Assembly: GCA_016787805.1 (NCBI GenBank)
Contig: JAEUTY010000021.1
Span: 1-64,000, forward strand
Direction: 5' to 3'
Origin: Flavobacterium sp.
GTDB lineage: Bacteria; Bacteroidota; Bacteroidia; Flavobacteriales; Flavobacteriaceae
DNA length: 64,000 nt
Part shown: positions 620 to 64,000 of the stretch, piece by piece
Numbering within the stretch: the first letter of the stretch is position 1
Layout of the letters: each line of letters starts with the position of its first letter
Notes under the pieces: generated by a model
Databases searched by the model: none
Told to the model about the DNA's origin: nothing
Seen by the model: only the letters and a program-made list of their open reading frames with translations
Made by a program: the position numbers and the translations under genes

Positions 620-3600
620 TTATCTTTTTACGATTCTTATATTTTTAGTTTCATTAGCATTAGAAACAATCATGGTGTAAACACCTGTTGGATAGTTAGC
701 ACCAAAAGATATAGTTTCTAATTCATTAGTATTTATAGAACCATTATCTACTAAACGACCCATTAAATCGTATACTTGGTAAGTAATGGTTTCTTCTTTG
801 AAATTCTCCACTTTTAAATTGAACGTTTCTGCGAATGGATTTGGAGCAACTATAGCAGTGAATTCTTTTGTTTCTGCTTGAACTTCGTCCATTCGGGTAG
901 TTGCTTTAAAGGTTGTAATTGTACAAGCTTGTCCGTAAGGAAGTTCAGGTCCGCTTGGATTAGATGCAGCAACTTCAACTATGTAAGTTTTGTTGAATTC
1001 AATTCCGGTTAAGAAAGAGAATTTTAATGTTCTTGAAACCGAGTTAAAGATTTGCGTGTTGCTTGGATTAGTGGATTCTGTAATTCTGAATCGATATCCT
1101 GGAGCATTTGGCACAGCAACAGCATATAAAGTTGTTCCCAGATTGGTGATAGTTATACCACATTGAGTTGATTGTAATCTAGTAGTAACAGTAGGAGTAA
1201 TAATTGAACAAGCAGGAATACGTGTGAAGTCAGACCAAACTCCAGCTAATTTAACAGCAACTTCAACATAGAAAACAGTATTGTATGCGTGATTGTTAAC
1301 TTGAGTTAAGTTAAATGTACGTAAAGCTCTGTCGATAGTAGCCACTTGATTTGTATATAAATTAGTTACTCTGAATCGATAACCTTGAGCACCAGAAACT
1401 GCATTAGCATAGATTGCTTGGTTTAATGTATTTAAACGGATTGGCTTAACAGTTGCATTGTTGTCATTACAATCGTAATTGTTATTTACACCACACGCTA
1501 CTATTGTTGAAGATCCGAAAGTATCACCGTCGTTATCTAAATATTGAATTTCATTATCATTACAGTCATCACTATTTGTAACTCCACATGCTACCATAGT
1601 TGTAGACCCGAATGAATCGCCATCGTTATCCGCATATTGAATTTGATTATCATCACAATCAGAATTATTTGCTACACCACAAGCTACTTGAGTAGTTGAA
1701 CCAAAACCGTCGTTATCGTTATCTAAATATTCAATTTGGTTGTCGTTACAGTCTGAGTTGTCAGTGATTCCGCAAGCAGCTAATGTTTGTGAACCAAAAC
1801 CATCATTATCAGCATCTGCATAAGTAAGTAAGTTATCGTCGCAATCTTCATTGTTTGCTACACCACAAGCTACTTGAGTTGTTGAACCAAAACCATCAGC
1901 ATCAGCATCTAAATATTGAATTTGAGTATCGTCGCAGTCATCACTATTCGTAACACCACAAGCTACCATAGTGGTTGATCCAAATGAATCGCCATCATTA
2001 TCCGCATATTGAATTTGGTTGTCGTCGCAATCAGCATTGTTGGCTACACCACAAGCTACTTGAGTAGTTGAACCAAAACCATCGTCATCAGCATCTAAAT
2101 ATTGAATTTGAGCATCGTCACAGTCATCACTATTAGTTACACCACAAGCGGCCATAGTGGTAGATCCAAATGAATCACCATCGTTATCTGCATATTGAAT
2201 TTGGTTGTCGTCGCAATCAGCATTGTTGGCTACACCACAAGCTACTTGTGTTGTTGAACCAAAACCGTCAGCATCAGCATCTAAATATTGAATTTGAGTA
2301 TCATCGCAATCTGTATTGTCTGAAACATATCCAACTGGAGCGGTTGCGCCTGTTGTAGTTGCTAAAGGATTTCCGAAACCATCACCATCTAAATCTTGGT
2401 AATAAGTATTACTGTTGTTACTGTTAGGATCATTATCGTCTAAATCATCAGTATTAGTAACACCGTCGCAATCTACCATAGTGGTAGAACCATATCCGTC
2501 ACCGTCATTGTCAGCATATTGAATTAAATTGTCGTCGCAATCGGTATTGTTGGCTACACCACAAGCTACTTGAATAGTTGAACCAAATCCGTCACCATCT
2601 AAGTCTTGGTAAAGTACTTGAGAATCATCGCAATCACTAGTGTTAGTTACTCCACAACCTGCTAAAACAGTTGATCCAAATCCATCTAAATCTATATCTT
2701 CGTATAGAATTTGGCTATCATTACAATCATCAGCATTATCTGCAAAACCAAAAGGTTGGAAGCAAGCGGTTAATGAACCCAATGCATCACCAAAACCATC
2801 ATTATCTGAATCTTGGTAAAAAGTAACAGGAGAAGTAAGTTCAGGATTATTATCGTCACAATCACTTGAATTGGCCACACCACAAGCAGCTGGAGTTGTT
2901 GAACCAGCTCCATCACCATCAGCATCTACATATAAAATTTGAGTGTCATCACAATCCATATCGTTGGTAACATATCCTTCAGGTTGTGTACAAGAAGGTA
3001 AGATGTTTAAACCTGTTCCGTAACCATCACCATCAGCATCTTCGTAATAAGTGGTTGGGAAATTGATGAACATATCAGTATCATCACAATCGATGTTGTT
3101 TTCTACACCACAACCAGCCAATACTGTAGAACCAAGTCCGTCACCATCGCTATCTTCATATTGTAAAGCAGTGTCGTCACAGTCATCAGTATTATCAATA
3201 TAACCTTCAGGTATAGAACATGCTTCGATAGTTACTGCTTCGTTTCCAAAACCGTCACCATCATTGTCTTGATAATAGGTAGTTGTACCAAAAATTTCTG
3301 GGTTCGAATCGTCGCAATCGCTAGTGTTAGTTACTCCACAGCCTGCTAATACTGCTATACCAAAGCCGTCACCATCATTATCAACAAACTGAATTTCGTT
3401 ATCATCACAATCGTCAGCATTGTCAACATAACCTTCAGGAAGTGAACAAGCTTCTACAGAAACAGCTTCATTTCCGAAACCGTCACTATCATTATCTTGG
3501 TAGTAAGTAGTAGTTGTTCCGCCAACAGCAATTATAACTGTTTGTGTTTGGGAAGAGGTGTTACCATTACCATCATTGTATGTCCAAGTAATCGTATAAG

Positions 3601-4633
3601 TACCCGCAACATTGTAAGATAGCGGATTTGATGTAGTAGCAGTAACCGATCCAACACAATTATCTGTCGCTGTTGGAATTTCAGTTATAGTGGCAGAACA
3701 TTGTTCTGATATTGTAGGTAGTGATGTTACATCGGCAACAGGTGCAAATGTGTCATTTACAGCTACAGTTTGTTGTTGAGTTGAAGAATTACCTTCCGCA
3801 TCAGTATAAGTCCAAGTAATAACATAAGTTCCTTCGGTATTATAAGTTAGAGGGTCAGTTGTAGTTCCTAAGATGGTTCCACTACAATTATCGGTTGCAG
3901 ATGGAGATGTAACTGTTACAGAACATTGTCCTGATAGAGTTGGTAAACTTGTAATATTTGGAACCGGTTCTATAGTGTCATCAATGATGACAGTTTGTGT
4001 TTGTGTTGCTATATTACCTTGACCATCATTATAGGTCCAAGTAATTTCATAAGTTCCTTGTTCAGAATAAGTAAAAGGACTTGTAGTTGTTGCTGTTACT
4101 ATTCCCGAACAGTTGTCAGTAGCTGTTGGAGCAATTACTGTAGCAGAACATTGCTCAGTAATGGTTGGTAAACTTGACAAATTTGGAATTGGAGCTGTAG
4201 TATCGCTAACGATTACAGTTTGTGTTTGTGTCGAAGTATTTCCATGGCCATCATCATATAACCAAGTTACAAAATAAGTTCCTTGAGTAGTAAAGGTCAA
4301 TGTTGAGGTTGTGCCTTCAATTGGACCATAACAATCACTAGTAGCTGTTGGCGGAGTTAATGTTACTGAACATTCTCCAGTTGCATTAGGCAAGCTTGGA
4401 ACATCTGGAACAGGAACTCCACAATCAATTGCATTGGTGTTGCCTTTCTTTTGAGCTACTGAAACCAATTTGTTGATTTCATTAAAGTGTTGTTTACTAT
4501 TTGTTTTGAAACGAAAGACAACTTTATCTTTTTCACTCAAATAGTAATTTGCCGTTTTATTGTAACCATTGCTTGCCATCGATAGGTTGGATAGCAGAAT
4601 AGTTAAGAACAAAATTAAGGTAAATTTTTTCAT
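620..4633 (-). CDS. Large secreted T9SS protein with HYR domains and about 20 thrombospondin-3-like calcium repeats
   Basis: 1337 residues. Order: signal peptide (1-20); a short segment (about 25-65) matching the start of the propeptide of the neighbouring M14 peptidase; four HYR-like Ig domains (about 70-415) each with a Cys pair (QCSATV ... TDNC); about 20 units of roughly 25-31 residues built on Y.D.DGDGFG and DCDD motifs (about 420-1060), a thrombospondin type 3-like calcium-binding array with two Cys per unit; two fibronectin-like segments (about 1065-1250); and a type A T9SS sorting domain (about 1263-1337: APNPF, YDLMGRLVDNG, GVYTMIV, IRIVKR). By family knowledge it is exported by T9SS and attached to or released from the cell surface. 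No catalytic domain is visible; a rigid calcium-stabilised stalk or adhesin is inferred. The DNA is strongly repetitive (93-bp and 186-bp periods), so the repeat number may vary between strains or be mis-assembled. Confidence 0.9.
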   Translation of the reverse strand: MKKFTLILFLTILLSNLSMASNGYNKTANYYLSEKDKVVFRFKTNSKQHFNEINKLVSVAQKKGNTNAIDCGVPVPDVPSLPNATGECSVTLTPPTATSDCYGPIEGTTSTLTFTTQGTYFVTWLYDDGHGNTSTQTQTVIVSDTTAPIPNLSSLPTITEQCSATVIAPTATDNCSGIVTATTTSPFTYSEQGTYEITWTYNDGQGNIATQTQTVIIDDTIEPVPNITSLPTLSGQCSVTVTSPSATDNCSGTILGTTTDPLTYNTEGTYVITWTYTDAEGNSSTQQQTVAVNDTFAPVADVTSLPTISEQCSATITEIPTATDNCVGSVTATTSNPLSYNVAGTYTITWTYNDGNGNTSSQTQTVIIAVGGTTTTYYQDNDSDGFGNEAVSVEACSLPEGYVDNADDCDDNEIQFVDNDGDGFGIAVLAGCGVTNTSDCDDSNPEIFGTTTYYQDNDGDGFGNEAVTIEACSIPEGYIDNTDDCDDTALQYEDSDGDGLGSTVLAGCGVENNIDCDDTDMFINFPTTYYEDADGDGYGTGLNILPSCTQPEGYVTNDMDCDDTQILYVDADGDGAGSTTPAACGVANSSDCDDNNPELTSPVTFYQDSDNDGFGDALGSLTACFQPFGFADNADDCNDSQILYEDIDLDGFGSTVLAGCGVTNTSDCDDSQVLYQDLDGDGFGSTIQVACGVANNTDCDDNLIQYADNDGDGYGSTTMVDCDGVTNTDDLDDNDPNSNNSNTYYQDLDGDGFGNPLATTTGATAPVGYVSDNTDCDDTQIQYLDADADGFGSTTQVACGVANNADCDDNQIQYADNDGDSFGSTTMAACGVTNSDDCDDAQIQYLDADDDGFGSTTQVACGVANNADCDDNQIQYADNDGDSFGSTTMVACGVTNSDDCDDTQIQYLDADADGFGSTTQVACGVANNEDCDDNLLTYADADNDGFGSQTLAACGITDNSDCNDNQIEYLDNDNDGFGSTTQVACGVANNSDCDDNQIQYADNDGDSFGSTTMVACGVTNSDDCNDNEIQYLDNDGDTFGSSTIVACGVNNNYDCNDNNATVKPIRLNTLNQAIYANAVSGAQGYRFRVTNLYTNQVATIDRALRTFNLTQVNNHAYNTVFYVEVAVKLAGVWSDFTRIPACSIITPTVTTRLQSTQCGITITNLGTTLYAVAVPNAPGYRFRITESTNPSNTQIFNSVSRTLKFSFLTGIEFNKTYIVEVAASNPSGPELPYGQACTITTFKATTRMDEVQAETKEFTAIVAPNPFAETFNLKVENFKEETITYQVYDLMGRLVDNGSINTNELETISFGANYPTGVYTMIVSNANETKNIRIVKR
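1490..3510 (-). repeat. Tandem coding repeats, 93-bp unit with 186-bp higher-order period
   Basis: The calcium-repeat part of the HYR gene. Between about 1500 and 2330, units of 31 codons (DCDDNQIQY.D.DGDSFGSTT...ACGV.N..) alternate between an ACGVAN and an ACGVTN form, so near-identical DNA recurs every 186 bp. Older, more diverged and partly shorter units continue to about 3510. The near identity at the 3' part of the gene points to recent expansion by unequal recombination. Confidence 0.85.
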
Positions 4634-5692: not shown

Positions 5693-8600
5693 TTAAGGTG
5701 TAATTTTGAAGATGAAATTATTGGCATTGGTTTCCCAAATTGAATAATCACCATTGTCAACGTTTCCATCACCATTCAAATCAGTAATAAAATCTCCTGA
5801 TTCAAAATTGTTAGCGTCTGTTTCCCAAATAGAGTAATCACCATTGTCAACGTTTCCATCGCCATTGATATCACCTGAATAAAGAGCCCAAACACCAGGT
5901 TCCATTTCTTTCATATTGGAACCATAAGCCTTAGTTCCTTGATTGGTGAAATCATAACTAACAGGAGTTGATCCTACAGCTATAGGATTACCGCTCCAAG
6001 TTTCAACTATATTGCTTCCTTTAATAACTAAGTAAAAAGAACCAGTTGGAGCCGTTGCAAAAGTACATGTTGCAGTTCCGTCAGTTAATAATGAAGCTGT
6101 TGTTGTATCAACTAAAGAGTAATTGTTTTGATTTCTCAACTCAACGGTTATAGTTTCAACTTCGGTAGCGTTGGCACTTACTCCGCGATTCATTCTGGCC
6201 GATGTCATCGATCCGTTTCCAGAATAATAACCTTCAAAATAGAGTTTGGCATTAACGATAGAAGAACAAGAATTTGTTAAACTATAGCTATTATCATTAC
6301 AATCAGTATTGTCTGATACATAACCATTTGGAGCTACACAATTTGTAGTGGTTACGTTGTTATTTCCAAATCCGTCACCATCTAAATCTTGATAGAAGGT
6401 AACTATTGGTCCACCATTAGTAATAATTACAGTTTGGTTTTGATTAGTGAAATTCCCTTTAGCATCGGTATATTTCCAAACAATTGTATATGTACCTTGC
6501 GTATTGTAAGTGGTTGGATTAACCGTTGTTGCAGTTATCGTACCAAAGCAATTATCAGTTGCTGTTGGAGCAGTTACAGTAGCCGAACATTGACCTGTAA
6601 CTGTTGGCAATGAACTAACATTTGGTACAGGAGCAATGGTGTCACTAATGTTAACTATTTGGGTTTGATTTGTGAAATTTCCTTTCGCATCCGTATATTT
6701 CCAAGTAATTGTATAAATTCCTTGTGTATTATATGTCGTTGGATTAACAGTAGTTGCAGTTATCGTACCAGAACAATTATCGGTAGCTGTTGGAGCAGTT
6801 ACAGTAGCAGAACATTGACCGTTAATCGTTGGTAATGAACTTACATTAGGAACTGGCGGAGTTGTATCATTTACAATTACTGTTTGATTTTGGTTTAGAG
6901 TATTTCCTTTAGCATCAGTATAAGTCCACACCACAGTAAAAGTACCTTGAGTATTGTAAGTAGTTGGGCTAGCTGTTGTTGCAGTTATTGTTCCCGAACA
7001 ATTATCAGTAGCTGTTGGAGCTGTTACGCTAGCCGAACATTGACCTGTAATTGTAGGCAAATTAGTCACATTGGGAACGGGAGCTTGTGTATCACTCACA
7101 ACTACTGTTTGTGCCTGGAAAGCTTGATTACCTCTACTGTCAATGTATTCCCAAATAATATTATAAGTTCCTTGAGCAGTGTAGGTTAATGGATCGCTAG
7201 TAGTTGCAGTAACTGTTCCCATACAGTTGTCTGTAGCCGTTGGAGCCGTCACAGTAGCAGAACATTGTCCAGTTACTGTAGGCAGATTTGTCACATTTGG
7301 AACTGGTGCAACAGTATCGGTAATTATTACATTTTGAAATTGACCAGAAGTTAAACCATGACCATCATTGTAGGTCCAATAAATTTGATGAGTTCCTTGG
7401 GTGGTATAAGTTAAAGGAAATGTTGTTGTTGCAGTAATTTGACCATAACAATTACTTGTTGCGGTTGGCGGTGTTACTGTAGCCGAACATTGAGCTGTAA
7501 TATTAGGTAAGTTGGTTACGTTTGGAACGGGAGCACTACAATTGCCTGTTATAGTAACTGTTTGCGCAGGAGTAGTAGTAGAATTACAGTTGTTAAAAAC
7601 CGTAACGTTTGCAGTTCCCGCTGTTGCTACATCGGTAGCAGTAATTGCAGCAGTTAATTGTGTTGAACTTACAAATGTTGTAGTTCTATTAGTACCATTC
7701 CATCTTACAATTGATTGGCCACTGATAAAGTTGGTTCCGTTTACTGTCAATGTGAAAGCACCAGAACCAGCTGTTCTTGTATTCGGATTTACTGAAGTAT
7801 TTGTTGGGTTAGGAGTAACGGTAACAATTACTTCGTCTCTATTACTTTTTGCAGGTTCAAATTTCCAGTTGAAAAATTGGAAGAAAGTTCCAGTACCACC
7901 ATTTCCAGTAATTGTAATTGTGCTATTTGTATATGGATATGTAATTCCAGAAGTAGCACAAGTTAAGTTCATAGCAGAAATTTGTCTCGAAACCAAGCGT
8001 AAGCCTGTTCCAACAGGAATAAAAAAGTCTAATGGAATATCTTGTGAACCAGAAGCTGATAAACGAATCACTTTTGATTCTAACATAGTTCCCGAGCTAT
8101 CTCGTAATTCAACCAAAATTTGGCCAGCAGCAGAAGCCGTAATCAAAACCGACTTTAATTTAGTAGGTGTTGTACAATTGAAGACTAAGTACTTGTTAGC
8201 TACTGTTGTGTTAGCTGTTGCTGTTCCTGAAACCGTTGCAGGTCCAACATTTGCTAAAGCTACTTCTCTTTCTACCCAATATGATGTTGTAGATGTTAAA
8301 GCCGGTGTAGTGAAATTAGCACCAGTAAAAGTTGGAGTAGTTCCATTAGCTGTAGTATACCATTTAATTGTTCCTGAACTTGCAGTACTCAAAGCGGCGG
8401 TTTGCCCTGTACAAATAGTTGCATCACTTACTGCTGGAACAGTTGTAGATGGCACCATAGTAACATTTAAAGTGGTAGTAGTATTATTTGTTAAAGTAAC
8501 TGGAATAGTTTGTGTAGCATATCCAGGCGCTTCAAAAATTACATTGTAGCTTCCTGCAATTTGCAGTTTGTGGTAATCCCCTTTTGTTGGAGAAGTTTCA

Positions 8601-9955
8601 ACCCAAGATCCCCAACCATCTAAAGTTCCACTGATGTAAACTTTAGCATGAACTGGATTTCCTGATTGGTCAGTTACAATACCATGCAATCCATAATTGG
8701 CTTGTTTGATATAGTTCAACATTGCCTGTCTGTTTCTGTCCCAATGAAAGGGTAGGTTAGAAGCAGCAGGAAATTTTGTTGCTGATACTTCAATAGTAGA
8801 TTCTTTATTGTGATTAAAAAAGTTGTTGCAATCCTGACGACCACCTTTTACAGTATACCAAATTGCACCGTTTGTTGTTCCTGGGAATTGACCACTTCCG
8901 TAAACGTCATCCATATAATTTAAATTACCATCTGCGGTTTGACAAGTTTGGGCATACTCTTGAGCCACAAATTTGAAATAGTTGTCGTGTGGGTGAATAC
9001 TCACCGCTGAAGCACCAGTAGCAGAGTTTGAAGTATCCCAAGGATAATTGAAAACTTCCGCTCCACCATGATAATTAGCAGCTAAAACAAAATGACGTGT
9101 AGCTTCAAAATTCATAAAAGCAATAGTTTCAGGTTGATATACTGCACTATCAGGGTGTAAACCTCCGATTGGATCTGGGTAATTTCTATTTAGGTCAATG
9201 TTATTAGCATTGGCTCTAGTGGCAGTATTACCAGTTGTGTTCATCGTATCGTTTCCAGCAGTTCGATAGGAACCATCTGGATTTGCCAAAGGACAAATGA
9301 ACAATTCAGTTCCGTTGATTATATTAGTTACTTCTGACAACGAGCCGTAATTGGTCAATAAATAATCAATAAAACGCAACATGGTTGGATAACCCGTAAT
9401 TTCGTCTCCGTGCATAGATGATGAATAGAAAAATTCAGGTTCAGTTTCATCACTAGCTACATTATCTGAAATTTTTAGTACATATAAGGTTCTTCCGTTT
9501 GGAGTTGTTCCAATATTTTGAAGTGTACATAAACTAGGATAGGTAGCTGCCCAAAATTGCATTTTTGCAACATACTCGGAATACTTAGGATAAGCATCCC
9601 AAGTGGTGTCCCAAGCGTTGACTGCTTGTGTGGAATATTGGGTAAATTCTTGCGGAATTTCATTGTCTTCAGCTGTTACGCGATAAGCTAATCCATAAGA
9701 TAAAAACCGTTGAAATTGGTCTTTGTTAGCATAAGCTTCGACTTCCAACAAGTTTTCGTCAACACGTTTGTGACTGACAGAAAGAAACTCGTTAAGCTCT
9801 AAAAATTGCTGCTTGCTATTGGCTTTGAAAGTAAAGATAACTTCACCTTTCTCGCGTAAATACTGCAACGCTTTTTCGTAAGAACCATCTTTTTGTGCAA
9901 ATGAAATGCTCGAAAACAAGACAGTTAACCAGAGAATTAGGGTAATTTTTTTCAT
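5693..9955 (-). CDS. Secreted M14 metallocarboxypeptidase with HYR domains and C-terminal dockerin-like module
   Basis: 1420 residues. Signal peptide 1-20; propeptide-like region to about 110; M14 peptidase about 118-415 with zinc ligands H182 and E185 (HGDE) and H296 (NYHGG), substrate-binding N256/R257 (DLNRNYP) and catalytic E389 ([10 protein letters not shown]); a transthyretin-like domain (about 420-500) as in carboxypeptidase D/N enzymes; an Ig-like domain with CTGQ (about 505-565); an IPT/TIG-like domain (about 705-785); five HYR domains (about 795-1200); one thrombospondin-3-like unit; a beta domain; and, in the last 60 residues, two copies of [17 protein letters not shown], a dockerin-like double calcium loop. 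There is no T9SS sorting domain at the C-terminus although the next gene has one. It probably removes C-terminal residues from extracellular proteins or peptides. Promoter and shared motif lie at 9979-10051. Confidence 0.9.
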
Positions 9956-50859: not shown

Positions 50860-50865
50860 AATTTG

Positions 50866-50950
50866 TCAATTAGAGAATGTGTCAATTAGTCAATTAGAGA
50901 ATGTGTCAATTAGCCAATTAGAGAATGTGTCAATTAGCCAATTAGAGAAT
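50866..50950 (+). repeat. 24-bp tandem repeat, 3.5 copies
   Basis: Unit TCAATTAGAGAATGTGTCAATTAG at 50866-50889, 50890-50913, 50914-50937 and a part to 50950; the copies differ only at the first base (T or C). A following stretch (about 50980-51030) repeats CCACATTG with 8-9 bp period. Both lie between the palindromic element and carB; no protein-coding or CRISPR character. Confidence 0.9.
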
Positions 50951-51080: not shown

Positions 51081-53933
51081 ATGCCAAAAGACAACTCCAT
51101 TAAATCAGTTTTAATCATCGGTTCAGGACCAATCGTCATCGGACAAGCCTGCGAATTTGACTACGCAGGTTCACAATCGGCACGTTCCATTCGAGAAGAA
51201 GGAATTGAAGTGATTCTTATCAATTCCAATCCAGCTACCATCATGACTGATCCTTCCATGGCTGATCATGTGTATTTAAAACCTTTAACTACCAAATCCA
51301 TTATTGATATCCTCAAAGCACATCCACAAATTGATGCTGTTCTCCCAACTATGGGTGGACAAACTGCTTTGAATTTGTGTTTAGAAGCCGACGAAAAAGG
51401 CATTTGGCAAGATTTCGGTGTGCGACTAATTGGCGTCGATATCAATGCCATCAATATTACCGAAGATCGTGAGCAATTCAAACAATTGCTTCAAAAAATA
51501 GACGTTCCAACCGCACCCGCCAAAACCGCAACTTCGTTCTTAAAAGGAAAAGAAATTGCACAAGAATTTGGTTTTCCATTAGTAATTCGACCTTCGTTTA
51601 CTTTAGGTGGAACTGGAGCTGCTTTCGTTCACAAAAAAGAAGATTTTGACGATTTACTTACGCGTGGTTTAGAAGCTTCACCGATTCATGAAGTGCTGAT
51701 TGACAAAGCTTTACTCGGTTGGAAAGAATACGAATTAGAATTATTACGCGATAAAAACGACAACGTGGTCATCATTTGTTCCATCGAAAATATGGATCCA
51801 ATGGGAATTCATACAGGCGATTCAATCACAGTTGCACCAGCAATGACGTTATCCGACACCACGTTCCAAAAAATGCGTGACATGGCCATTTTAATGATGC
51901 GTTCGATTGGGAATTTTGCAGGTGGTTGTAACGTACAATTTGCCGTTTCTCCCGACGAAAAAGAAGATATCGTGGCCATCGAAATCAATCCGCGTGTATC
52001 GCGTTCATCAGCATTAGCATCCAAAGCAACGGGTTATCCAATTGCAAAAATAGCTTCAAAATTGGCCTTAGGTTATACGCTTGACGAACTTCAAAATCAA
52101 ATCACCAAATCCACTTCGGCTTTATTCGAACCTACATTGGATTATGTTATCGTGAAAATCCCACGTTGGAACTTTGACAAATTTGAAGGCGCTGATCGAA
52201 CATTAGGGTTACAAATGAAATCAGTAGGCGAGGTGATGGGAATTGGACGTTCGTTTCAAGAAGCCTTACACAAAGCCACACAATCTCTAGAAATCAAGCG
52301 CAATGGTTTGGGCGCTGACGGAAAAGGCTACAAAAACTACGATCAAATTATTGAAAAACTCACTTTTGCCAGTTGGGACAGAGTGTTTGTGATTTACGAT
52401 GCGATAGCTATGGGAATTCCACTAAGTCGTATCCACGAAATCACCAAAATTGATATGTGGTTTTTGAAACAATATGAAGAATTGTATTTTATTGAAAAAG
52501 AAATTTCACAATATAAAATTGACACACTTCCAAAAGAATTATTACTCGAAGCCAAACAAAAAGGTTATGGCGATCGTCAAATAGCGCACATGTTGGGTTG
52601 TTTGGAAAGTCAGGTGTATAAACTGCGCGACGAGATGAACATCAAACGCGTATATAAATTGGTAGATACGTGTGCGGCCGAATTCAAGGCACAAACACCT
52701 TATTATTATTCGACATTTGAAGCCGAAATTCAAACTGCTGATGGCAAACGTTTTGTAGACAACGAAAGCAAAGTTTCCCACAAGAAAAAAGTTGTTGTTT
52801 TAGGTTCAGGCCCGAATCGAATAGGACAAGGAATTGAGTTCGATTACTCCTGTGTTCACGGTGTTTTGGCAGCCAAAGAATGTGGTTACGAAACCATCAT
52901 GATCAACTGTAATCCAGAAACGGTTTCAACCGATTTTGATACAGCTGATAAATTGTATTTTGAACCCGTTTTTTGGGAACATATTTATGAAATCATTCAG
53001 CATGAAAATCCAGAAGGCGTAATTGTGCAATTAGGAGGACAAACCGCATTGAAATTAGCGGAGAAATTATCCAAATACGGAATCAAAATTCTTGGAACTT
53101 CGTTTGACGCCTTAGATTTAGCCGAAGATCGTGGACGATTTTCTGAATTGTTGACCGATTTGAAAATTCCGTTTCCCAAATTTGGAGTGGCCGAAAATGC
53201 CGATCAAGCTTCCGCTTTGGCCGATGTGTTGGATTTCCCGTTGTTAGTTCGACCTTCGTATGTGTTGGGTGGACAAGGCATGAAAATCGTAATTAATAAA
53301 CAAGAGCTAGAAGAGCATGTTATTGATTTACTAAAAAATATTCCTGGTAATAAATTGTTGCTCGATCACTATTTAGATGGCGCCATCGAAGCCGAAGCCG
53401 ACGCGATTTGCGATGGTGAAAACGTATACATCATCGGAATCATGGAACACATTGAACCTTGCGGCGTTCACTCAGGTGATTCGAATGCTACATTACCGCC
53501 TTTTAACTTAGGTGAATTCGTAATGCAACAAATCAAAGATCACACTAAGAAAATTGCATTAGCATTGCGAACAGTAGGTTTGATTAACATTCAATTTGCC
53601 ATCAAAGATGACATCGTTTACATCATCGAAGCCAATCCGAGAGCATCGAGAACCGTTCCGTTTATCGCGAAAGCGTATGGAGAGCCTTATGTAAATTATG
53701 CTACTAAAGTCATGCTGGGCGTGAATAAAGTAACGGATTTTACCTTCAATCCGAAGTTAAATGGATATGCGATTAAACAACCTATTTTTTCTTTTAGTAA
53801 ATTTCCGAATGTCAATAAAGCACTCGGACCCGAAATGAAATCGACTGGTGAAAGCATTTTGTTTATCGATGATTTAAAAGACGATGCGTTTTACGAATTG
53901 TATAGCCGACGCAAAATGTATTTGAGTAAATAG
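51081..53933 (+). CDS. carB: Carbamoyl-phosphate synthase large subunit, short form without the MGS domain
   Basis: 950 residues. Two ATP-grasp halves are visible, each opening with a GSGP(I/N)xIGQ(A/G)xEFDY motif (residues about 12 and 575) and followed by the biotin-carboxylase-like N domain, ATP-binding loop (FTLGGTGAAF; YVLGGQGMKI) and metal-binding EINPR/EANPR strands. The E. coli enzyme has 1073 residues and a C-terminal MGS domain that binds the allosteric effectors UMP, IMP and ornithine; this protein ends at the point where that domain would begin (GPEMKSTGESILFIDDLKDD...). The stop is clean, so this looks like a natural short form. It supplies carbamoyl phosphate for pyrimidines and arginine; carA is not in the window. 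Confidence 0.95.
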   Translation: MPKDNSIKSVLIIGSGPIVIGQACEFDYAGSQSARSIREEGIEVILINSNPATIMTDPSMADHVYLKPLTTKSIIDILKAHPQIDAVLPTMGGQTALNLCLEADEKGIWQDFGVRLIGVDINAINITEDREQFKQLLQKIDVPTAPAKTATSFLKGKEIAQEFGFPLVIRPSFTLGGTGAAFVHKKEDFDDLLTRGLEASPIHEVLIDKALLGWKEYELELLRDKNDNVVIICSIENMDPMGIHTGDSITVAPAMTLSDTTFQKMRDMAILMMRSIGNFAGGCNVQFAVSPDEKEDIVAIEINPRVSRSSALASKATGYPIAKIASKLALGYTLDELQNQITKSTSALFEPTLDYVIVKIPRWNFDKFEGADRTLGLQMKSVGEVMGIGRSFQEALHKATQSLEIKRNGLGADGKGYKNYDQIIEKLTFASWDRVFVIYDAIAMGIPLSRIHEITKIDMWFLKQYEELYFIEKEISQYKIDTLPKELLLEAKQKGYGDRQIAHMLGCLESQVYKLRDEMNIKRVYKLVDTCAAEFKAQTPYYYSTFEAEIQTADGKRFVDNESKVSHKKKVVVLGSGPNRIGQGIEFDYSCVHGVLAAKECGYETIMINCNPETVSTDFDTADKLYFEPVFWEHIYEIIQHENPEGVIVQLGGQTALKLAEKLSKYGIKILGTSFDALDLAEDRGRFSELLTDLKIPFPKFGVAENADQASALADVLDFPLLVRPSYVLGGQGMKIVINKQELEEHVIDLLKNIPGNKLLLDHYLDGAIEAEADAICDGENVYIIGIMEHIEPCGVHSGDSNATLPPFNLGEFVMQQIKDHTKKIALALRTVGLINIQFAIKDDIVYIIEANPRASRTVPFIAKAYGEPYVNYATKVMLGVNKVTDFTFNPKLNGYAIKQPIFSFSKFPNVNKALGPEMKSTGESILFIDDLKDDAFYELYSRRKMYLSK

Positions 53934-54428: not shown

Positions 54429-55535
54429 TTATTGTTGGTTGATTTTGAGTAACTCGACTTCAAAAATCAAATCGCTTTTTGCAGGAATAACGCCGCCCAT
54501 TGCTCTTTCGCCATAAGCTAAGTTATAGGGAATGTAGAATTTGTATTTAGAACCTTCGTTCATTAATTGCAAACCTTCTGTCCAACCTGGAATTACTTGA
54601 TTCAAACCAAAATCAATTGGTTGACCTCTTTGAACACTGCTGTCAAAAACTTTTCCGCTAGTTAGTGTTCCAGTGTAATGCACTTTTACATTGCTTGTTG
54701 CTGTTGGTTTAGCACCAGTTCCTTCTTGTAATACAATGTATTTCAATCCGCTAGCAGTTGTTTTTCCGTTCTCAAATTCTTTCAAAGCGGCTGCATTAGC
54801 AATTGCTCTCTCTTTAGCTTCTTTTTCAGCTTGTGCTTTTTCTTCTACATCTTTATTGGCAAAATAATCAGTAAAAACTTTTACAGCGTCGAATTTTTTA
54901 GCTTCACTTCCTTTTTTAACAATTGTGATTGACTTGATTATGTCATCTTGAACAATAGCATTTACCACTTCCATTCCAGTAACAACAATTCCGAATACAG
55001 TATGTTTACCATCCAACCAAGGAGTGTCTTTGTGTGTGATAAAAAATTGAGAGCCATTAGTTTTTGGTCCGGAGTTAGCCATCGATAAAATACCGCCTTT
55101 GTAGTGTTTTAAATCGGTGATTTCATCTTTAAATGCATAACCTGGGCCACCAGAACCATTTCCAGCTGGATCACCACCTTGAATCATAAAGTCTTTTATT
55201 ACACGGTGAAATTTCAAACCATCGTAGAATTTTTTACCTTTATAATTCTCGCTAACTTTAGGATTAGTTCCTTCGGCCAACGAAACGAAATTGGCAACTG
55301 TAATAGGTGTTTTTTTGTATTCCAATTGAATAACAATTTTTCCTTTAGAGGTTTCAATTTCTGCAAAAATTCCTTCTTTGTCATTTACCACGGGAAGGTT
55401 AACTGGAGCCGCTGGTTTTGTTGGAGTAGCTACAGTTTTGGTTGTTTCTGCTTTTTTGGTTGATTTCTTCTTTGCGCCTTGAGCAAAAATCATAGTGGTG
55501 CTCAATAAAAGAAGTGCTACTAATTTAATTTTCAT
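54429..55535 (-). CDS. Periplasmic double-domain prolyl isomerase (cyclophilin-FKBP fusion)
   Basis: 368 residues: signal peptide (1-19, MIFAQ), Lys/Thr/Pro-rich linker (20-50), cyclophilin domain (about 57-215: [46 protein letters not shown]), a charged helical linker (about 225-262, [19 protein letters not shown]) and FKBP domain (about 268-366: [63 protein letters not shown]). Both halves catalyse cis-trans proline isomerisation in protein folding. It is the last gene of an operon with nrnA, gldI and a paralogous fusion gene. Confidence 0.93.
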
Positions 55536-55566
55536 AAGTATTCAGTTTATAATAGTTTAACGTAAT

Positions 55567-56649
55567 TTATTTTTCAGTCATTTCAAGTTCAAAAATAATG
55601 GTTGCGTTAGGCGGAATCACATTTCCAGCTCCTTGTGGACCATAGCCTAATTGAGGCGGAATTACAAAAACGGCTTTCTCACCAATACTCATTTGTTCAA
55701 TTGCTTCAATAAAACCAGGAATCAATCCTTCTTTAGTTCCAATTTTGAACGGAATAGGTGAATAACCATTTTGCTGATCTTTCATTGCATTGTATTTTCC
55801 GCATTGCTCTTCAATCGATTTCATGCTACTATCAAATAGTGTTCCATCTTCTAAAAACCCAGCATAATCAATATTTACAGTTGTTCCTGTAGCTGGTTTT
55901 TTACCTGAACCTTTTTGCGTAATCTTATAAATTAAACCACTTGGCAATTTGGTTCCAGTAGTTTTAGCGTCATTAATCATAGCCACAAATGGAGCTTTGA
56001 TTTTTGCCATAGCAGCCGATTGTTGTTTTTGTTTTTCTTCAAAAACTTTTGCTGCATCAAAGGCTTCAGCATCTTTACCTTTACGGATAATTTTTACGGA
56101 TTTAATGAAATCATCTACTACAATTTTATTGACAACTTCCATTCCTTTGTCCATAACTTTTCCAAAAACAGTATGCTTTCCATCGAGCCATGGAGTTGGA
56201 ACAATGGTAATAAAAAACTGGCTGCTATTGGTTCCAGGACCTGAATTTGCCATGGATAAGATACCTGGAGCATCGTGTTTTAAATCGGTGATTTCGTCGT
56301 TGAATTTATAACCTGCATCACCAGAACCATTTCCTAAAGGATCTCCTGTTTGAACCATAAAATCTTCAGCATCACCATTGCATTTTGAAATCACGCGGTG
56401 GAATTTTAATCCGTCAAAAAAACGTTTGCCTTTGAATGCTTCAGAAACCAAATTATTTTTACCTTCAGCCAAAGAAACAAAATTGGCTACCGTTATTGGG
56501 GTTTTTTTATAGTCCAATTGTACGATAATAGCGCCTTTGTTCGTCTCAATTTCGGCATACAAACCATCCGGTAAATTTTGGTGTTTGTCTTTGCAAGAAG
56601 TAAAAAAAGTGGAAATTAAAATGACTAAAATAAGAATTCTAGATTTCAT
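55567..56649 (-). CDS. Lipoprotein prolyl isomerase (cyclophilin-FKBP fusion)
   Basis: 360 residues with a lipoprotein signal (lipobox FFTSC, Cys near 19), cyclophilin domain (about 28-200: [50 protein letters not shown]), helical linker and FKBP domain (about 240-358: VNIDYAGFLEDGTLFDSS, FKIGTKEGLIPGFIEAIEQM, PPQLGYGPQGAGNVIPPNATIIFELEM). It is a paralogue of the downstream gene with the same domain order but a lipid anchor. It starts 3 bp after the stop of gldI, so it is translationally linked to it. Likely assists folding of outer-membrane or T9SS-exported proteins (inference). Confidence 0.93.
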   Translation of the reverse strand: MKSRILILVILISTFFTSCKDKHQNLPDGLYAEIETNKGAIIVQLDYKKTPITVANFVSLAEGKNNLVSEAFKGKRFFDGLKFHRVISKCNGDAEDFMVQTGDPLGNGSGDAGYKFNDEITDLKHDAPGILSMANSGPGTNSSQFFITIVPTPWLDGKHTVFGKVMDKGMEVVNKIVVDDFIKSVKIIRKGKDAEAFDAAKVFEEKQKQQSAAMAKIKAPFVAMINDAKTTGTKLPSGLIYKITQKGSGKKPATGTTVNIDYAGFLEDGTLFDSSMKSIEEQCGKYNAMKDQQNGYSPIPFKIGTKEGLIPGFIEAIEQMSIGEKAVFVIPPQLGYGPQGAGNVIPPNATIIFELEMTEK

Positions 56650-56652
56650 AAA

Positions 56653-57204
56653 TTATTTTTTTTCAGTTTCGATTTTATTTAAGGTTACAGTGCAAATAAG
56701 TGGTTCGTTGGTGCCAATTTTGTTGTTGTCACCATGGTAGCCATACGCCATGTGTGATGGGAAAAGAAATGTTACTTTTTCTGTTTTTTTCATCAATTTA
56801 ATGCCGTGACGTAATCCCATCATAATGTTTTGTTTATCAACTACATAAGTTTGAGGTTTCAATTCTTCTTTGGTGTAAATTACGTTGCCGTTCAAGTCTT
56901 TTACTTCGTAATCAAAGCTTGCAATATCTCCTTTTTTAGGATGAATAGTATCGTTTTCATTTTTAATCTCATAATGATACCAATAGCCCTTTTGTGAAGC
57001 TAAGTATTTGATTTTAGGATTACTTTTGATAATCGAATCAATTCTTCCTTCTTCGCCTTTGATGAGTTTTTTGTTGCGTTCTGCTGATTCTTTAAGGAAC
57101 GTTCCCGACGATTGCGAAATTGGTCTTCGGGCTTGTGGTTCTTTGCAACTCGTAAGTTGAAGCAAGCCGATAAAGACAATAAGTAAGTAGGTTATTTTTT
57201 TCAT
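56653..57204 (-). CDS. gldI: Gliding motility lipoprotein GldI (FKBP-type prolyl isomerase)
   Basis: 183 residues. Lipobox LTSC near residue 20 followed by KEPQARRPISQSSGTF, the characteristic GldI start, and an FKBP-like domain (about 85-180: GDIASFDYEVKDLNGNVIYTKEE, PSHMAYGYHGDNNKIGTNEPLICTVTLNKIE). In Flavobacterium johnsoniae GldI is a lipoprotein required for gliding. It starts directly at the stop of the DHH gene (no spacer) and is followed after 3 bp by the first fusion isomerase. Confidence 0.95.
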   Translation of the reverse strand: MKKITYLLIVFIGLLQLTSCKEPQARRPISQSSGTFLKESAERNKKLIKGEEGRIDSIIKSNPKIKYLASQKGYWYHYEIKNENDTIHPKKGDIASFDYEVKDLNGNVIYTKEELKPQTYVVDKQNIMMGLRHGIKLMKKTEKVTFLFPSHMAYGYHGDNNKIGTNEPLICTVTLNKIETEKK

Positions 57205-58341: not shown

Positions 58342-58713
58342 CTATTTTGAAAGCAACAAACCAAACCAAACAGCAGCAAGTCCAACCAAAATACTTATTC
58401 CGATATATGCAAATGCTACCAATGAATGCTGATTTTGAAATAAAGAGTAGTTTTCAAGGCCGAAAGTAGAGAACGTTGTGTAACCACCGCAAAACCCAGT
58501 GATTAAAAACCATTTTAAATTAGAGTCGGCCAAATTGTTTTTTTCTAAAATTCCGATGAAAAGACCAATCAAAAAACAACCTAAAATATTGGCAATAAAA
58601 GTGGCTAACGGAAAATTATTCGACCAATATTTAGAAACTAAAATTGTAGTAAGGTAACGTAAAACACTTCCGATGGCACCGCCGATAGCTATGTAAATGA
58701 TGGTTTTGAGCAT
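58342..58713 (-). CDS. crcB: Fluoride exporter of the CrcB/Fluc family
   Basis: 123 residues with four membrane helices. Family marks: GGAIGSVLRY at the start, NILGCFLIG with the channel Asn near residue 42, and GFCGGYTTFSTFGLEN with the Phe/Tyr/Thr set near 74-86. CrcB dimers form fluoride channels in the inner membrane. The -7 box at 58730-58737 leaves a leader of only about 11 nt, so no fluoride riboswitch is present in front of it. Confidence 0.95.
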   Translation of the reverse strand: MLKTIIYIAIGGAIGSVLRYLTTILVSKYWSNNFPLATFIANILGCFLIGLFIGILEKNNLADSNLKWFLITGFCGGYTTFSTFGLENYSLFQNQHSLVAFAYIGISILVGLAAVWFGLLLSK

Positions 58714-59126
58714 GTTGTTAATTTGGAATCAAAAGTAATGAAATTTAGTTTTTAATCCTTCTTTTACTTCATCACTTACGGATTTTATAAAGTTAATTAT
58801 ACTCAATTGGCGGAAATATATATTTTACTTCATAAGCTAAGTAGGGTATTTTTTTTAACAACTGTTATACAATGAACTGAAAAGTTTTGAAATGTTAAAA
58901 CAATAAAAATACAATTAAGAACGCCCCAAGTCCATCACATTGTAATAATATTTTTGATAAAAATAATTGTTTAGTTCTCAATTGACATTGACTTAAATGA
59001 AATTCGAGTGAATTATAGCCAAGTTGATTAACTTAAATCTTGCTTAATTTTAATTATCTGTTTCTCAACAATATAAAGTCATAAGTAAAAAAACTAACTT
59101 TATCAAACAAAAGCGCAATAAGTGGC
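58714..59126. other. Intergenic region between crcB and the adhesin gene
   Basis: 413 bp, divergent promoters expected. Besides the crcB -7 box, a weak -7 box TAACTTTA (59095-59102) lies 24 bp before the adhesin ATG; no -33 box is convincing. No RNA gene, terminator hairpin or copy of the 14-bp surface-gene motif was found. Confidence 0.55.
58730..58737 (-). promoter_or_regulatory. -7 box of crcB
   Basis: Sense (minus) strand TACTTTTG, 16 bp before the ATG at 58713. The -33 box is unclear. Confidence 0.55.
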
Positions 59127-62100
59127 ATGAAAAAAAAATTTACTTTATTTATTTATTTATTTAAAGAAAATCATCACTTTGTTAATTTTGATGATGTTAA
59201 ATATTGGCTTTAGTCAGTTGGTATCTCAACCTACAAGCCCAGGAATACCCAATTTAACTATTGCCAAAAACTGGACAAGTGGTGGTTCAAATGTAGCATC
59301 TTTTAATGTTAAAGGAAAAACAGGTTCAGGTAATTTGGAGCCTACTACAGCAAGTACTTTACGCGCAACGTTCTCTTTTATATCAAATATCGGTCAATAC
59401 GGAGAAAAAATGAAAGGTTATGAACAGATGGGTAATATTCAATTTGGATATGAAGGACTCGATATGCCAGTTTTATTTACTCCGAAAGGGCTGATTCATC
59501 TTCAAAGGAAATACGAAAAAATTTCTCATGCTGAGGAAGAACGGTTAGAAAAACAAGGAATTCCAGAGGAAGAAATTGAACGTAAATTAATTATTACTGA
59601 CCGAGTAATTACAATGGAGTGGGTTGGTGCTAATCCGAATGTTGAAGTAATTACAGAAGAAAAAACAACTGATTATCATACGTACGGAATGATTCAGGAT
59701 AAGGCTTATGGGTATAAAAAACTCATTTATAAAAATATTTATCCAGGTATTGATCTTGTTTACAGTTTTAAAAATAATAATCTAGGTTTTGAATACAGCC
59801 TATTGGTGAAGCCTGGAGTTGATTTAAGTGTTGTAAAATTAAAATATGGGGGCGATGTAAAAAAAATCAAGATAGATCGCAAGGGTAATCTAATAATTCA
59901 GTCTGATATTGATGGAATTTCGACAACTGTTCCAGTTACTTATTATGGCGAAAGTTTGTTGAGTCAATCGGTTGATGAATTTAAGTCGGTTTATCAACTA
60001 TCGGGTAATGAAATTAGTTTTTCTTTTCCACAAGGATATGATAATACAAAATCTATCGTTATTGATCCCTTTGTAACTAGCACAAATAATCTTACTGGAG
60101 TAAATTCAGGAAAAGCTATTGATGTAGATTTTGATTATGCGGGTAATGTTTATGTAGCAGGTGGTGGTAATCTTGTTTCTACATTTGCGGCAGGAGCAAG
60201 CCATAAACATGCCAAATATAATAGTGCTGGAGTATTGGAGTGGACGTTCAACGGAACACTTACCATTCCATCATGGCAAGCTGATTTTTATTATGGTGGG
60301 TGGGTAGTTGACAAAACAAATGGAAGTCTATACATCGGTCAAGGGTATGCAACAGCTGGGTTTAGAGTAATTAGACTTAGTACAACGGGGTTGTATGATA
60401 ATTATATTTCAACTGGTAATCCAGCATTTCAAGAAGCATGGAAAATGTATTGGGTTTGTAACAATGGTACGCCACAAATAATTTGTGCTGGAGGCGGTAC
60501 CACTGGTCCAACTAATTTTGCCTATTGTTCACCACCATCCACTACTTTGAGCGCTGCTGTAAATCTTACTGGTAGTTCAGTTGCGGGACAAGATATGACC
60601 GATTTGATTATTGACCCAGTAACCAATAGTTTATATACTATTTACGCATCGCCTCTTGATGCTAGTACAGCCAACAAAATATTCAAACACAATCAGCCTT
60701 ATAGTGCGGCATCATCTGCTTGGAGTACGTTTACGGGTTATCCAAGTGCAATATTGGAATTGAAAAATAGACCTTACTTAGCTACTGGATATAATGACAA
60801 CTCTTCCAATATTTTAGGTCAAAATGCTACTTATATATTTTACTGGGATGGACAACATTTGAAAGCATTTAATAAAACTACAGGTGCAATAGCAGGAACT
60901 CCTTTAACCATTGCAACTAATGTACTTTTAATGCAGGGTGGTATAGTTGCTGATGCTTGCGATAATGTCTACATTGGAAGTACCAACGGCACAATAAAAG
61001 TGTATAAATTTAATGGTTCAACTTTTGATGATGCACTAGCACCTGATATTACCATTGCGGGTCACAATACTAATGTATATGATTTAGCTTTGGACGAATC
61101 TAAAAAATTATTATATGCTAGTGGTGATGGTTTTGTTGCATCCATTGATGTAGCGGCTTATTGCCCTACGACTATCTATACTGTAAATGTTGTGCCAAAT
61201 TGTGCTACAGCAAGTGCTACAGCTACTATTAGCCCTACACCTCCTACAAATTCTACCGTTACATATGCATTATTAATTGGGAGCACGTTTATAGCTACTA
61301 ATACAACTGGAATATTTACTGGATTACTCCCTAATACGACTTATACAGTTGTAGCAACTATAAATTTTGCTTGTAGTGGTGTGCAGACAACTACAGACTT
61401 TGTGCTTCCTGGACCAACAATTACTTTTACACAAACCAATACTACTTGTGGTGCGAATACAGGTACAATTAATGCAGCAGGTTCTGGTCCGCTAGGGCCT
61501 TATACCTATAGCTTAGATGGAGGAGCCTTCCAAGCAAGTGGAAACTTTACTGGTTTGTCAGCAGGTATACATACTTTAATTGTTCAAGGTGCAGGTGGAT
61601 GCCCTAATAGTGTCACTATAAACATTCTGAATAGTAACGGACCCGTATTGAATTTTACACAGACCAATGCCACTTGTGGAAACAATACTGGTACAGTAAC
61701 AGCCAATGTTACGGGTGGTACAGCTCCATATCAATATAGCCTTACGGGCAGTATTAATTATCCCTTTCAAACGGGGAATTTCTTTACTGGTTTAGTTTCG
61801 GGTCAATACACTTTAACAGTAAAAGATGCGACTAATTGTACTAATAGTGCGTTAGTAACAATCACTACAAGTCCAGCAGTATCATTAAATGCAATACCAG
61901 CCTCAGCTACCTGCGGACAAAATAATGGAACTATAACCGTATTTGGTAGTGGAGGAACTTTGCCATTAGAGTACAGTATTAATGGAAATACTTTTCAGGT
62001 AGCTAATATTTTCAACAATATTACACCTGGTAGTTATACAGTTTATGTAAAAGATGCAATAGGATGTATAGCTTCTGTTACAGTTAATGTTGCTAGTAAT

Positions 62101-64000
62101 CCAGTACCATCTGTTAGTGCAACTTCAACAGCAGCAGCTTGTGGTAATGTGAATGGAAGTATTACTGCAAATGGGTCTGGAGGAGTTGCACCATTGCAAT
62201 TCAGTATTAATGGAACTACTTTTCAAACAAGTCCATTTTTTAGCGGTTTAGCAGCTGGGAGTTACACGGTTACAGTAAAAGATAGCACAGGGTGTATTGC
62301 TACCACAGCAGTCGTTGTAGGAAGTACAGGAGGTCCTTCCGCAACAGCAACTTCTACTTCGGCGAACTGTGGTGCATCCAACGGTACAATAACTATCACA
62401 GCAACAGGTACTGGACCATTTACTTATAGTATAAATGGAGTAACTTATCAAGCAAGTAATCTTTTTTCAAGTGTTGCAGCTGGGAATTATTTTGTTTTTG
62501 TAAAAAATGCATCTGGTTGTATAGGAGCCGCTATAGTTGTAGTAAATTCGATAGCAGGTCCTACAATAAGTGCGGTAAGTACAGCAGCATCCTGTACTAT
62601 TAATGATGGTACAATTACTGCTACTGGGAGTGGTGGTAGTGCGCCATTAGAGTACAGTATTGATGGAGTAACTTATTCCTCAAGCGCTATCTTTACTAAT
62701 TTAGCACCTAACACTTATACAGTTTATGTAAAAGATGCTTTGGGTTGTGTTAAAACTACTACCGTAATTGTCGGAAATGCTTCTGGGCTTTCGCTTGCAT
62801 TAAGTGTAGTGTCATCTTCGTGTGGTAATAATGGAATAATAACTGCTACTGCTACTGGTGGAGTAGGACCATTACAATATAACATAAATGGTGGAGCATA
62901 CCAAGCTAGTAATATTTTTAGTGGTTTATCACCTGGCACATATACTATTAATGTAAAAGATGCAAATAACTGTATTATCACCAAACAAGGAGTAGTTGTT
63001 TCTGTAACGGGATTAACCTTAAATGCCTCAGCTGTTTTACAAGCAACTTGCGCATCAAATAATGCAGTTATTGTAGCAACTGGTAGCGGTGGTACTGCTC
63101 CTTTAACGTATAGTATAAACGGTTCAACTTATCAATCATCAGGTACTTTTATTAATGTAGCACCAGGTACTTATACTGTTTATTTAAAAGATGCTACAGG
63201 ATGTATTATTACGCAATCTGGGCTAGTAATAACAACAACTGGAACTGGTCCAGGAATTAATACATTCACTTTTACAGTAAAAAATGCTTTGGTGTGCGAT
63301 GGTGGGTTAGGAAGAATTCAAAACTTTAAGGTAAACGGAGCAACTTGCGGTTCTTGTACATTCAGTTTAGATTTTGGACCATTTTTAGCAGTTAATACTT
63401 TTACGAATATCTCCGTTGGTCAGCATTATGTAACAGCAATGGATGCAGCAGGTTGTACAAAAACTTTTCCTTTTACAATTAATGTTATAACAGGTGCTAC
63501 TGCTACTGCTGTTGTTACTGGAACTCCTTGTGGTTCTAATACAGGTCAAATTGTATTAACGGGCGTAAATGGAGATGGTAGCCCGCCATATTATTACAGT
63601 ATTGATGGAGGGGTGACATGGGTACAATTTAATACGACTGCAACACTTACAGGATATTCACCGGGAACTTATACCATAATTATTGCTGACGATTCTGGAT
63701 TCGATCCTGATCCTCCTGGTCCTAGTTGTACTACAACCATAACCGTTATTGTACCTGCAACTACTGGCAGTCCTACACTTTCAATTACCTCAACTAATGG
63801 AACTTGTAATTTAGCCAATGGAAGTATTACAGCTACTGGGTCAGGCGGCAGTGGTGGACCATACTCCTATAGTATCGATGGTGGAGCCTATCAGTCAAGT
63901 GGCATTTTTTTAGGACTCGTAGCTGGAACTTATATTGTTGAAGTAATGGATGATGCTGGATGTGTTAAGTCATCAACTGTAACTGTTATGAACGGTGGAG
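59127..64000 (+). CDS. Very large SprB-like adhesin, out of frame at its N-terminus and incomplete at the window edge
   Basis: An uninterrupted frame runs from 59131 to the end (over 1620 codons) but has no usable start: the in-frame codon before it is TGA (59128-59130), and its first ATG (59191) lies inside the hydrophobic core. The only fitting start, ATG at 59127, is out of frame by one base and ends after 28 codons (TAG 59211). Removing one TTTA unit (59144-59163) or one A (59130-59138) joins it to the long frame and yields a full signal peptide (MKKKFTLFIYLKK..., cleavage after GFSQ). Domains: DUF7948-like (NIGQYGEKM..., about residues 80-330), a beta-propeller-like region (about 350-690) and, from about 61,400, eleven SprB-type repeats (C......G.I.A.GSGG..PL.YSING..YQ.S..F..L..G.YTV.VKDA.GC). 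SprB proteins are T9SS-secreted adhesins moved by the gliding motor. Confidence 0.85.
59130..59163 (+). repeat. A9 tract and (TTTA)5 tetranucleotide tract at the adhesin start
   Basis: Nine A at 59130-59138 directly after the ATG, then TTTAC and five perfect TTTA units at 59144-59163, all within the signal-peptide coding region. Either tract can change length by slipped-strand mispairing, and each change alters the reading frame: 5 units with A9 is OFF, 4 units with A9 or 5 units with A8 is ON. Confidence 0.9.
61390..64000 (+). repeat. SprB-type protein repeats (about 11 units)
   Basis: Units of about 75-90 residues marked by a Cys-Gly start at about 61447, 61675, 61912, 62146, 62371, 62590, 62818, 63049, 63526 and 63811, plus one divergent unit near 63295. 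Each ends in a VKDA.GC-like motif. The array continues beyond the window. DNA identity between units is moderate, so expansion is older than in the calcium-repeat gene. Confidence 0.85.

Follow-up and report, generated by a model that had tools for sequence, protein, structure and literature searches.

Switching of genes by slippage in short repeats is best documented in mucosal pathogens, and the known variation in the Bacteroidota proceeds mostly through DNA inversion. In Haemophilus influenzae and Moraxella, tetranucleotide repeats govern phase-variable genes, some of which encode surface structures. These contingency loci usually carry many more units, with several loci per genome, whereas the locus described here has one short tract.

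A TTTA unit also operates in icaC, a surface-polysaccharide gene of Staphylococcus aureus. As described in PMC4117637, the reading frame of icaC changes when one ttta unit is gained or lost, in a reversible and RecA-independent manner; the study lists isolates carrying 4, 5 or 6 units and found reversion to be rare, about 1 per 45,000 divisions. The present locus shares with icaC the unit, the small number of units, and the position inside a coding frame. The shift in icaC truncates the product to 303 of 350 residues according to the same study, whereas the tract here lies in the signal-peptide codons of a Bacteroidota type IX secretion system (T9SS) protein, and reversibility, shown for icaC, is presumed here. 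For inlA of Listeria, PMC2831843 describes a 5' poly(A) tract with reversible frame shifts, likewise in a surface-protein gene; that tract is homopolymeric, in contrast to the tetranucleotide favoured here by the orthologue alignment.

Phase variation of a surface-related phenotype is on record in the same genus, as rough and smooth colonies of Flavobacterium psychrophilum (PMC4322650, and the title of a reference in PMC6668605). It is a colony phenotype, and the relevant passages of PMC4322650 give no DNA mechanism for it. Inversion systems of Bacteroides are named in a 2025 review of phase variation, in which no word beginning with Flavobacter was found by term search (PMC11868660). Among the matches listed in searches of open-licence PMC full text, none reports, by title or abstract opening, a tetranucleotide switch in a protein of the T9SS or SprB type. 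An earlier note on this DNA likewise knew of no such switch of SprB-type adhesins in Flavobacteria. The mechanism is already known; the host group and the protein class appear to be new within the literature searched.

Start region of the giant gene and its orthologues

The window analysed is a stretch of 64,000 nucleotides, bases 1-64000 of contig C8 (69,874 bp), from a single draft assembly of 3.23 Mb in 51 contigs with 99.93% completeness. On its forward strand a coding frame opens at 59131 and continues past the window end (59131..64000, to 68184 on the contig). It comprises 3,018 codons without a stop (about 9 kb) and is closed at 68185, just ahead of a gene that was read by eye as GMP-synthase-like. 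The earlier note had described a frame of more than 1600 codons lacking a start; the frame is indeed open, whereas that length was cut by the window end.

The sole plausible start, ATG at 59127-59129, lies one base off the coding frame. Its own frame is a leader of 28 codons (59127..59213, forward strand) that ends at TAG 59211-59213. A TGA at 59128, in the coding frame, overlaps this ATG and directly precedes the open frame, in which the first usual start codon (ATG, GTG or TTG) is TTG 59179 and the next ATG is at 59191. Directly after the ATG lies a run of nine A (59130..59138, forward strand), read as lysine codons, and then a (TTTA)5 tract (59144..59163, forward strand) within the signal-peptide codons, which is the proposed slip site; Phe-Ile-Tyr-Leu coded as TTT ATT TAT TTA gives the TTTA repeat. 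The arrangement of ATG, A9, (TTTA)5 and out-of-frame giant gene proposed in the earlier note was borne out, and its coordinates and the 28-codon frame were verified.

Upstream of the start, a two-box element, TAGGGTA-N14-TGTTRT, occupies 58842..58868 on the forward strand and recurs with the same 14-nt spacing 5' of all four orthologues described below. Its distance to the ATG is 285 nt in the window gene and 114-140 nt in the orthologues (L004-L007). The pattern has one match elsewhere in the whole genome and its reversed control has none; as judged from sequence, the element is a probable promoter. A sigma-70 scan predicted 5 sites against 4.2 expected from shuffles, and the element is not among them. 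Comparison of 58700-59300 with Rfam gave no match to an RNA element in the leader up to E 1.

A pattern-based scan of a collection with one genome per species returned five loci, L004-L008. Four of them (L004-L007) are orthologues at 74-75% identity. L008 is a remote match (29% identity over 213 residues) and was excluded from all alignments, and the entries L003, L065, and L066 duplicate L007, L006, and L005. Among the orthologue matches are Flavobacterium lotistagni CYK-4 and Flavobacterium sp. CYK-55, the latter classed in the same genus as the window. The distribution of the gene in the genus is patchy: it is present in 4 of 398 sampled Flavobacterium genomes, namely the window's own and three others (L005-L007). 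A relatives search added no further orthologue: the single positive among 120 was the genome of the window itself.

All four orthologues have intact starts. Three have open frames of 2,893, 2,899, and 2,901 codons, and in L004 the frame stays open as far as the analysed piece extends. Because they combine these intact starts with an ATG aligned to that of the window, ATG 59127 is very likely the true start. In a MAFFT alignment of the DNA, each orthologue shows an exact 4-nt gap opposite the TTTA tract, and this is the sole gap between the ATG and the end of the signal peptide. The site of the A run holds AAT followed by 6-8 A in L005-L007 and AATTATAGA in L004, ungapped against the A9 of the window. 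Since the gap sits opposite the TTTA tract and the A-run region is gap-free, the alignment places the frame shift in the TTTA tract and not in the A run. The earlier note had allowed either one TTTA or one A as the slipping unit; the former is sustained by all four orthologues, whereas A9 is less supported, and is a less likely candidate for the main switch. Of two protein alignments, the shorter, made with the frame as it stands, places a 2-residue gap in the orthologues, and the longer is gapless there.

Besides a unit number that varies between cells or strains and a reversible change in expression, a phase-variable locus of the slipped-strand (SSR) kind is recognized by a non-triplet tandem repeat in or before a reading frame, such as (TTTA)5 in these signal-peptide codons, and by a gene whose frame depends on the unit number while the rest of it is intact, as seen here in the 4-nt gap against all four orthologues and in a body that is open and under selection. 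In pairwise comparison of the window with each orthologue, pN is 0.142-0.149 and pS is 0.725-0.779, the latter near saturation (1,339-1,347 shared codons, under half the length of the gene). The compared part of the gene is thus under strong purifying selection, and therefore inactivation, if any, would be recent. The earlier note had suggested comparing orthologues for a tract at the same place. It is not kept: the longest TTTA run at that site in L004-L007 is 1-2 units. As none of the four retains the tract, it would not be a conserved switch.

Identity of the encoded protein

SprB is recognized by SprB repeats, by a type B C-terminal domain (TIGR04131), and by an adjacent sprF gene of the PorP/SprF family. 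The protein encoded here has SprB repeats (PF13573), in six stretches within the window part and at 14 places gene-wide, 6 of them over the cut-off. Its C-terminus matches the type A sorting domain TIGR04183 (33.6 bits, cut-off 23) and, also above cut-off, PF18962; the type C sorting model NF033708 reaches 28.4 bits there, under its cut-off of 40. A profile match to DUF7948 lies near the N-terminus, and both the coding frame and the orthologues have codons that resemble a signal peptide, as judged by eye. A signal peptide together with a type A sorting domain marks a T9SS type A surface or secreted protein, the class in which these features place the product of the gene.

The type B domain is found at 12 places in a TIGR04131 search of the genome, none of them on contig C8. 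The PorP/SprF-family model TIGR03519 has two matches in the genome, neither beside the gene; the only one over the cut-off is on contig C40, next to a different gene that carries a type B domain (TIGR04131), and the other, on C18, scores 20.1 bits. The protein is like Flavobacterium SprB in its repeats and in T9SS export, and unlike it in having a type A instead of a type B domain, a PorP/SprF-family gene that lies apart, and DUF7948 near the N-terminus. The type A sorting domain and the gene neighbourhood rule out SprB identity. The description "SprB-like" in the earlier note holds for the repeats and fails if it is taken to mean SprB itself, given the type A domain and the PorP/SprF-family gene on C40; the same features leave the term gliding adhesin without support. 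The proposal there of a giant surface-protein gene put out of frame by a slip-prone tract in its signal-peptide codons is supported, with a gene body that is uninterrupted and, in the compared part, under purifying selection.

The gldI gene lies near the giant gene on the opposite strand (56653-57204), in a group of three genes (54429-57204) with matches to FKBP-type peptidyl-prolyl isomerases. The gldI match is over the cut-off, as is a BamJ-family match (54429-55535), and the third is below; the two members other than gldI also match the cyclophilin type, more weakly. Two more large proteins, both with HYR_4C domains, are encoded on the reverse strand at 620-4633 and 5693-9955, the first with a T9SS sorting domain and the second with a zinc carboxypeptidase domain. 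A 24-nt unit is repeated in 3.8 copies, with 97% matches, at 50860-50950, just 5' of the gene for the carbamoyl-phosphate synthase large subunit at 51081.

The tract in the host genome and in the genus

The number of (TTTA)5 tracts expected from composition was calculated with Markov models trained on 451 kb of the host genome minus the tract region. For both strands genome-wide, models of order 3, 5, and 7 predict 0.0011, 0.0006, and 0.0009 tracts, against one observed. Because this count is far above the expectation, the tract is most likely a product of slippage growth. Runs of at least four TTTA units occur at two places in the genome (three matches, of which two overlap at the gene start), and five units are reached only at the gene start; the other tract, (TTTA)4, is on contig C36, where a gene has its stop codon. 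Tetranucleotide tracts of at least 4 units number 2 in the 451 kb. Homopolymers of at least nine number 26 in the same sequence, including the A9 at 59130, whose length is ordinary in this genome. Of the 25 others, 11 sites (12 rows) fall close to the 5' ends of open frames. Eight of these 11 sites were viewed by eye, and no clear second case of an out-of-frame start was found among them; L045:14609, L050:10935, and L061:1802 were left out of the inspection, and at L044:3523 the start in the piece inspected could only be TTG or GTG.

In the genus, start-adjacent (TTTA)5 was found in 12 of 398 Flavobacterium genomes (14 matches), compared with 9 of 398 (17 matches) for the reversed control, and so is hardly enriched. 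All 12 start-adjacent places were inspected, three overlapping matches in genome G405 being counted as one place. Two of the 12 open a long frame: L016, where the tract is in frame, and the window gene, where it is not. Switches with (TTTA)5 beside the start find no support as a genus-wide class, since the count is near the control level and only these two stand at long frames. L016 (G032:C9:1257194, ATG at 1501) encodes a DUF3857 protein with (TTTA)5 in signal-peptide-like codons, and on its sequence is a candidate for a second slippage locus.

A proposed slippage switch and competing explanations

We lean slightly towards the view that the TTTA tract is an on/off switch operated by replication slippage and that the assembled copy was caught in the OFF state. 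Slippage at replication would add or remove 4-nt units within the signal-peptide codons, and each change would bring the giant type IX secreted surface protein into frame with its only ATG or take it out again. Compared with the orthologues, the assembled copy is longer by the length of one unit, so that translation would end after 28 codons and no protein would be made. The tract could slip back, and hence a population should contain both ON and OFF cells. By analogy with the rare reversion of icaC, switching is expected to be slow; its reversibility, rate, and benefit are what we infer. The 4-nt gap, the open frame of 3,018 codons, a pN far below pS, the conserved upstream element, the excess of the tract, and the icaC precedent with its identical unit all speak for a switch, whereas the shortness of five units, the lack of the tract in orthologues, and the weak genus-wide enrichment speak against it.

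A rival explanation is a recent fixed loss, in which one slippage event inactivated the gene and the lineage is heading towards a pseudogene with no adaptive switching. One tract length is known, from one genome, the four orthologues lack the tract, and the gene appears dispensable because only 4 of the 398 sampled Flavobacterium genomes, its own included, have it. Such a loss is nevertheless unlikely in view of about 9 kb of frame without a stop and of the ability of the same tract to slip back. The extra unit could also be an assembly or sequencing error, as the sequence is of low complexity and comes from one draft assembly in 51 contigs. This is quite improbable: a 20-nt tract is generally spanned by ordinary reads, and a whole 4-nt unit is generally atypical of base-calling errors.

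Two further explanations concern how protein might be made from the assembled copy. Some protein may arise if RNA polymerase slips on A9, or if translation now and then begins at a weak codon, for example ATT 59155. This ATT lies in the open frame, three codons before a lysine pair and a hydrophobic core. PMC1088944 reports that, in a large share of 108 bacterial genomes, selection against transcription slippage is evident from A/T runs of nine, and that slippage on a nine-A run was described for a Thermus gene, so that slippage of this kind on A9 could contribute some leaky expression; the same paper states, however, that the threshold varies among organisms. If ribosomes slipped by -1 on the A run, no expression would be added, because they would enter the third frame, not the coding frame. 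A leaky ON state on the whole carries a low probability. The true start could instead be TTG 59179 or ATG 59191, the earliest usual start codons in the coding frame, which would place the tract within the leader. Either codon would drop the charged n-region of the signal peptide, whereas all four orthologues have an ATG aligned to 59127 and an intact N-terminus, and this explanation is highly improbable.

To return to the slippage switch, a broader reading is possible but more tentative: the locus may be a tetranucleotide contingency locus for a giant type IX adhesin, and AT-rich signal-peptide codons may readily become slip tracts and frame switches. If the switching is real, Flavobacterium would vary a surface protein of 3,000 residues through DNA slippage, which would suggest surface variation under pressure from phages, grazers, or attachment.
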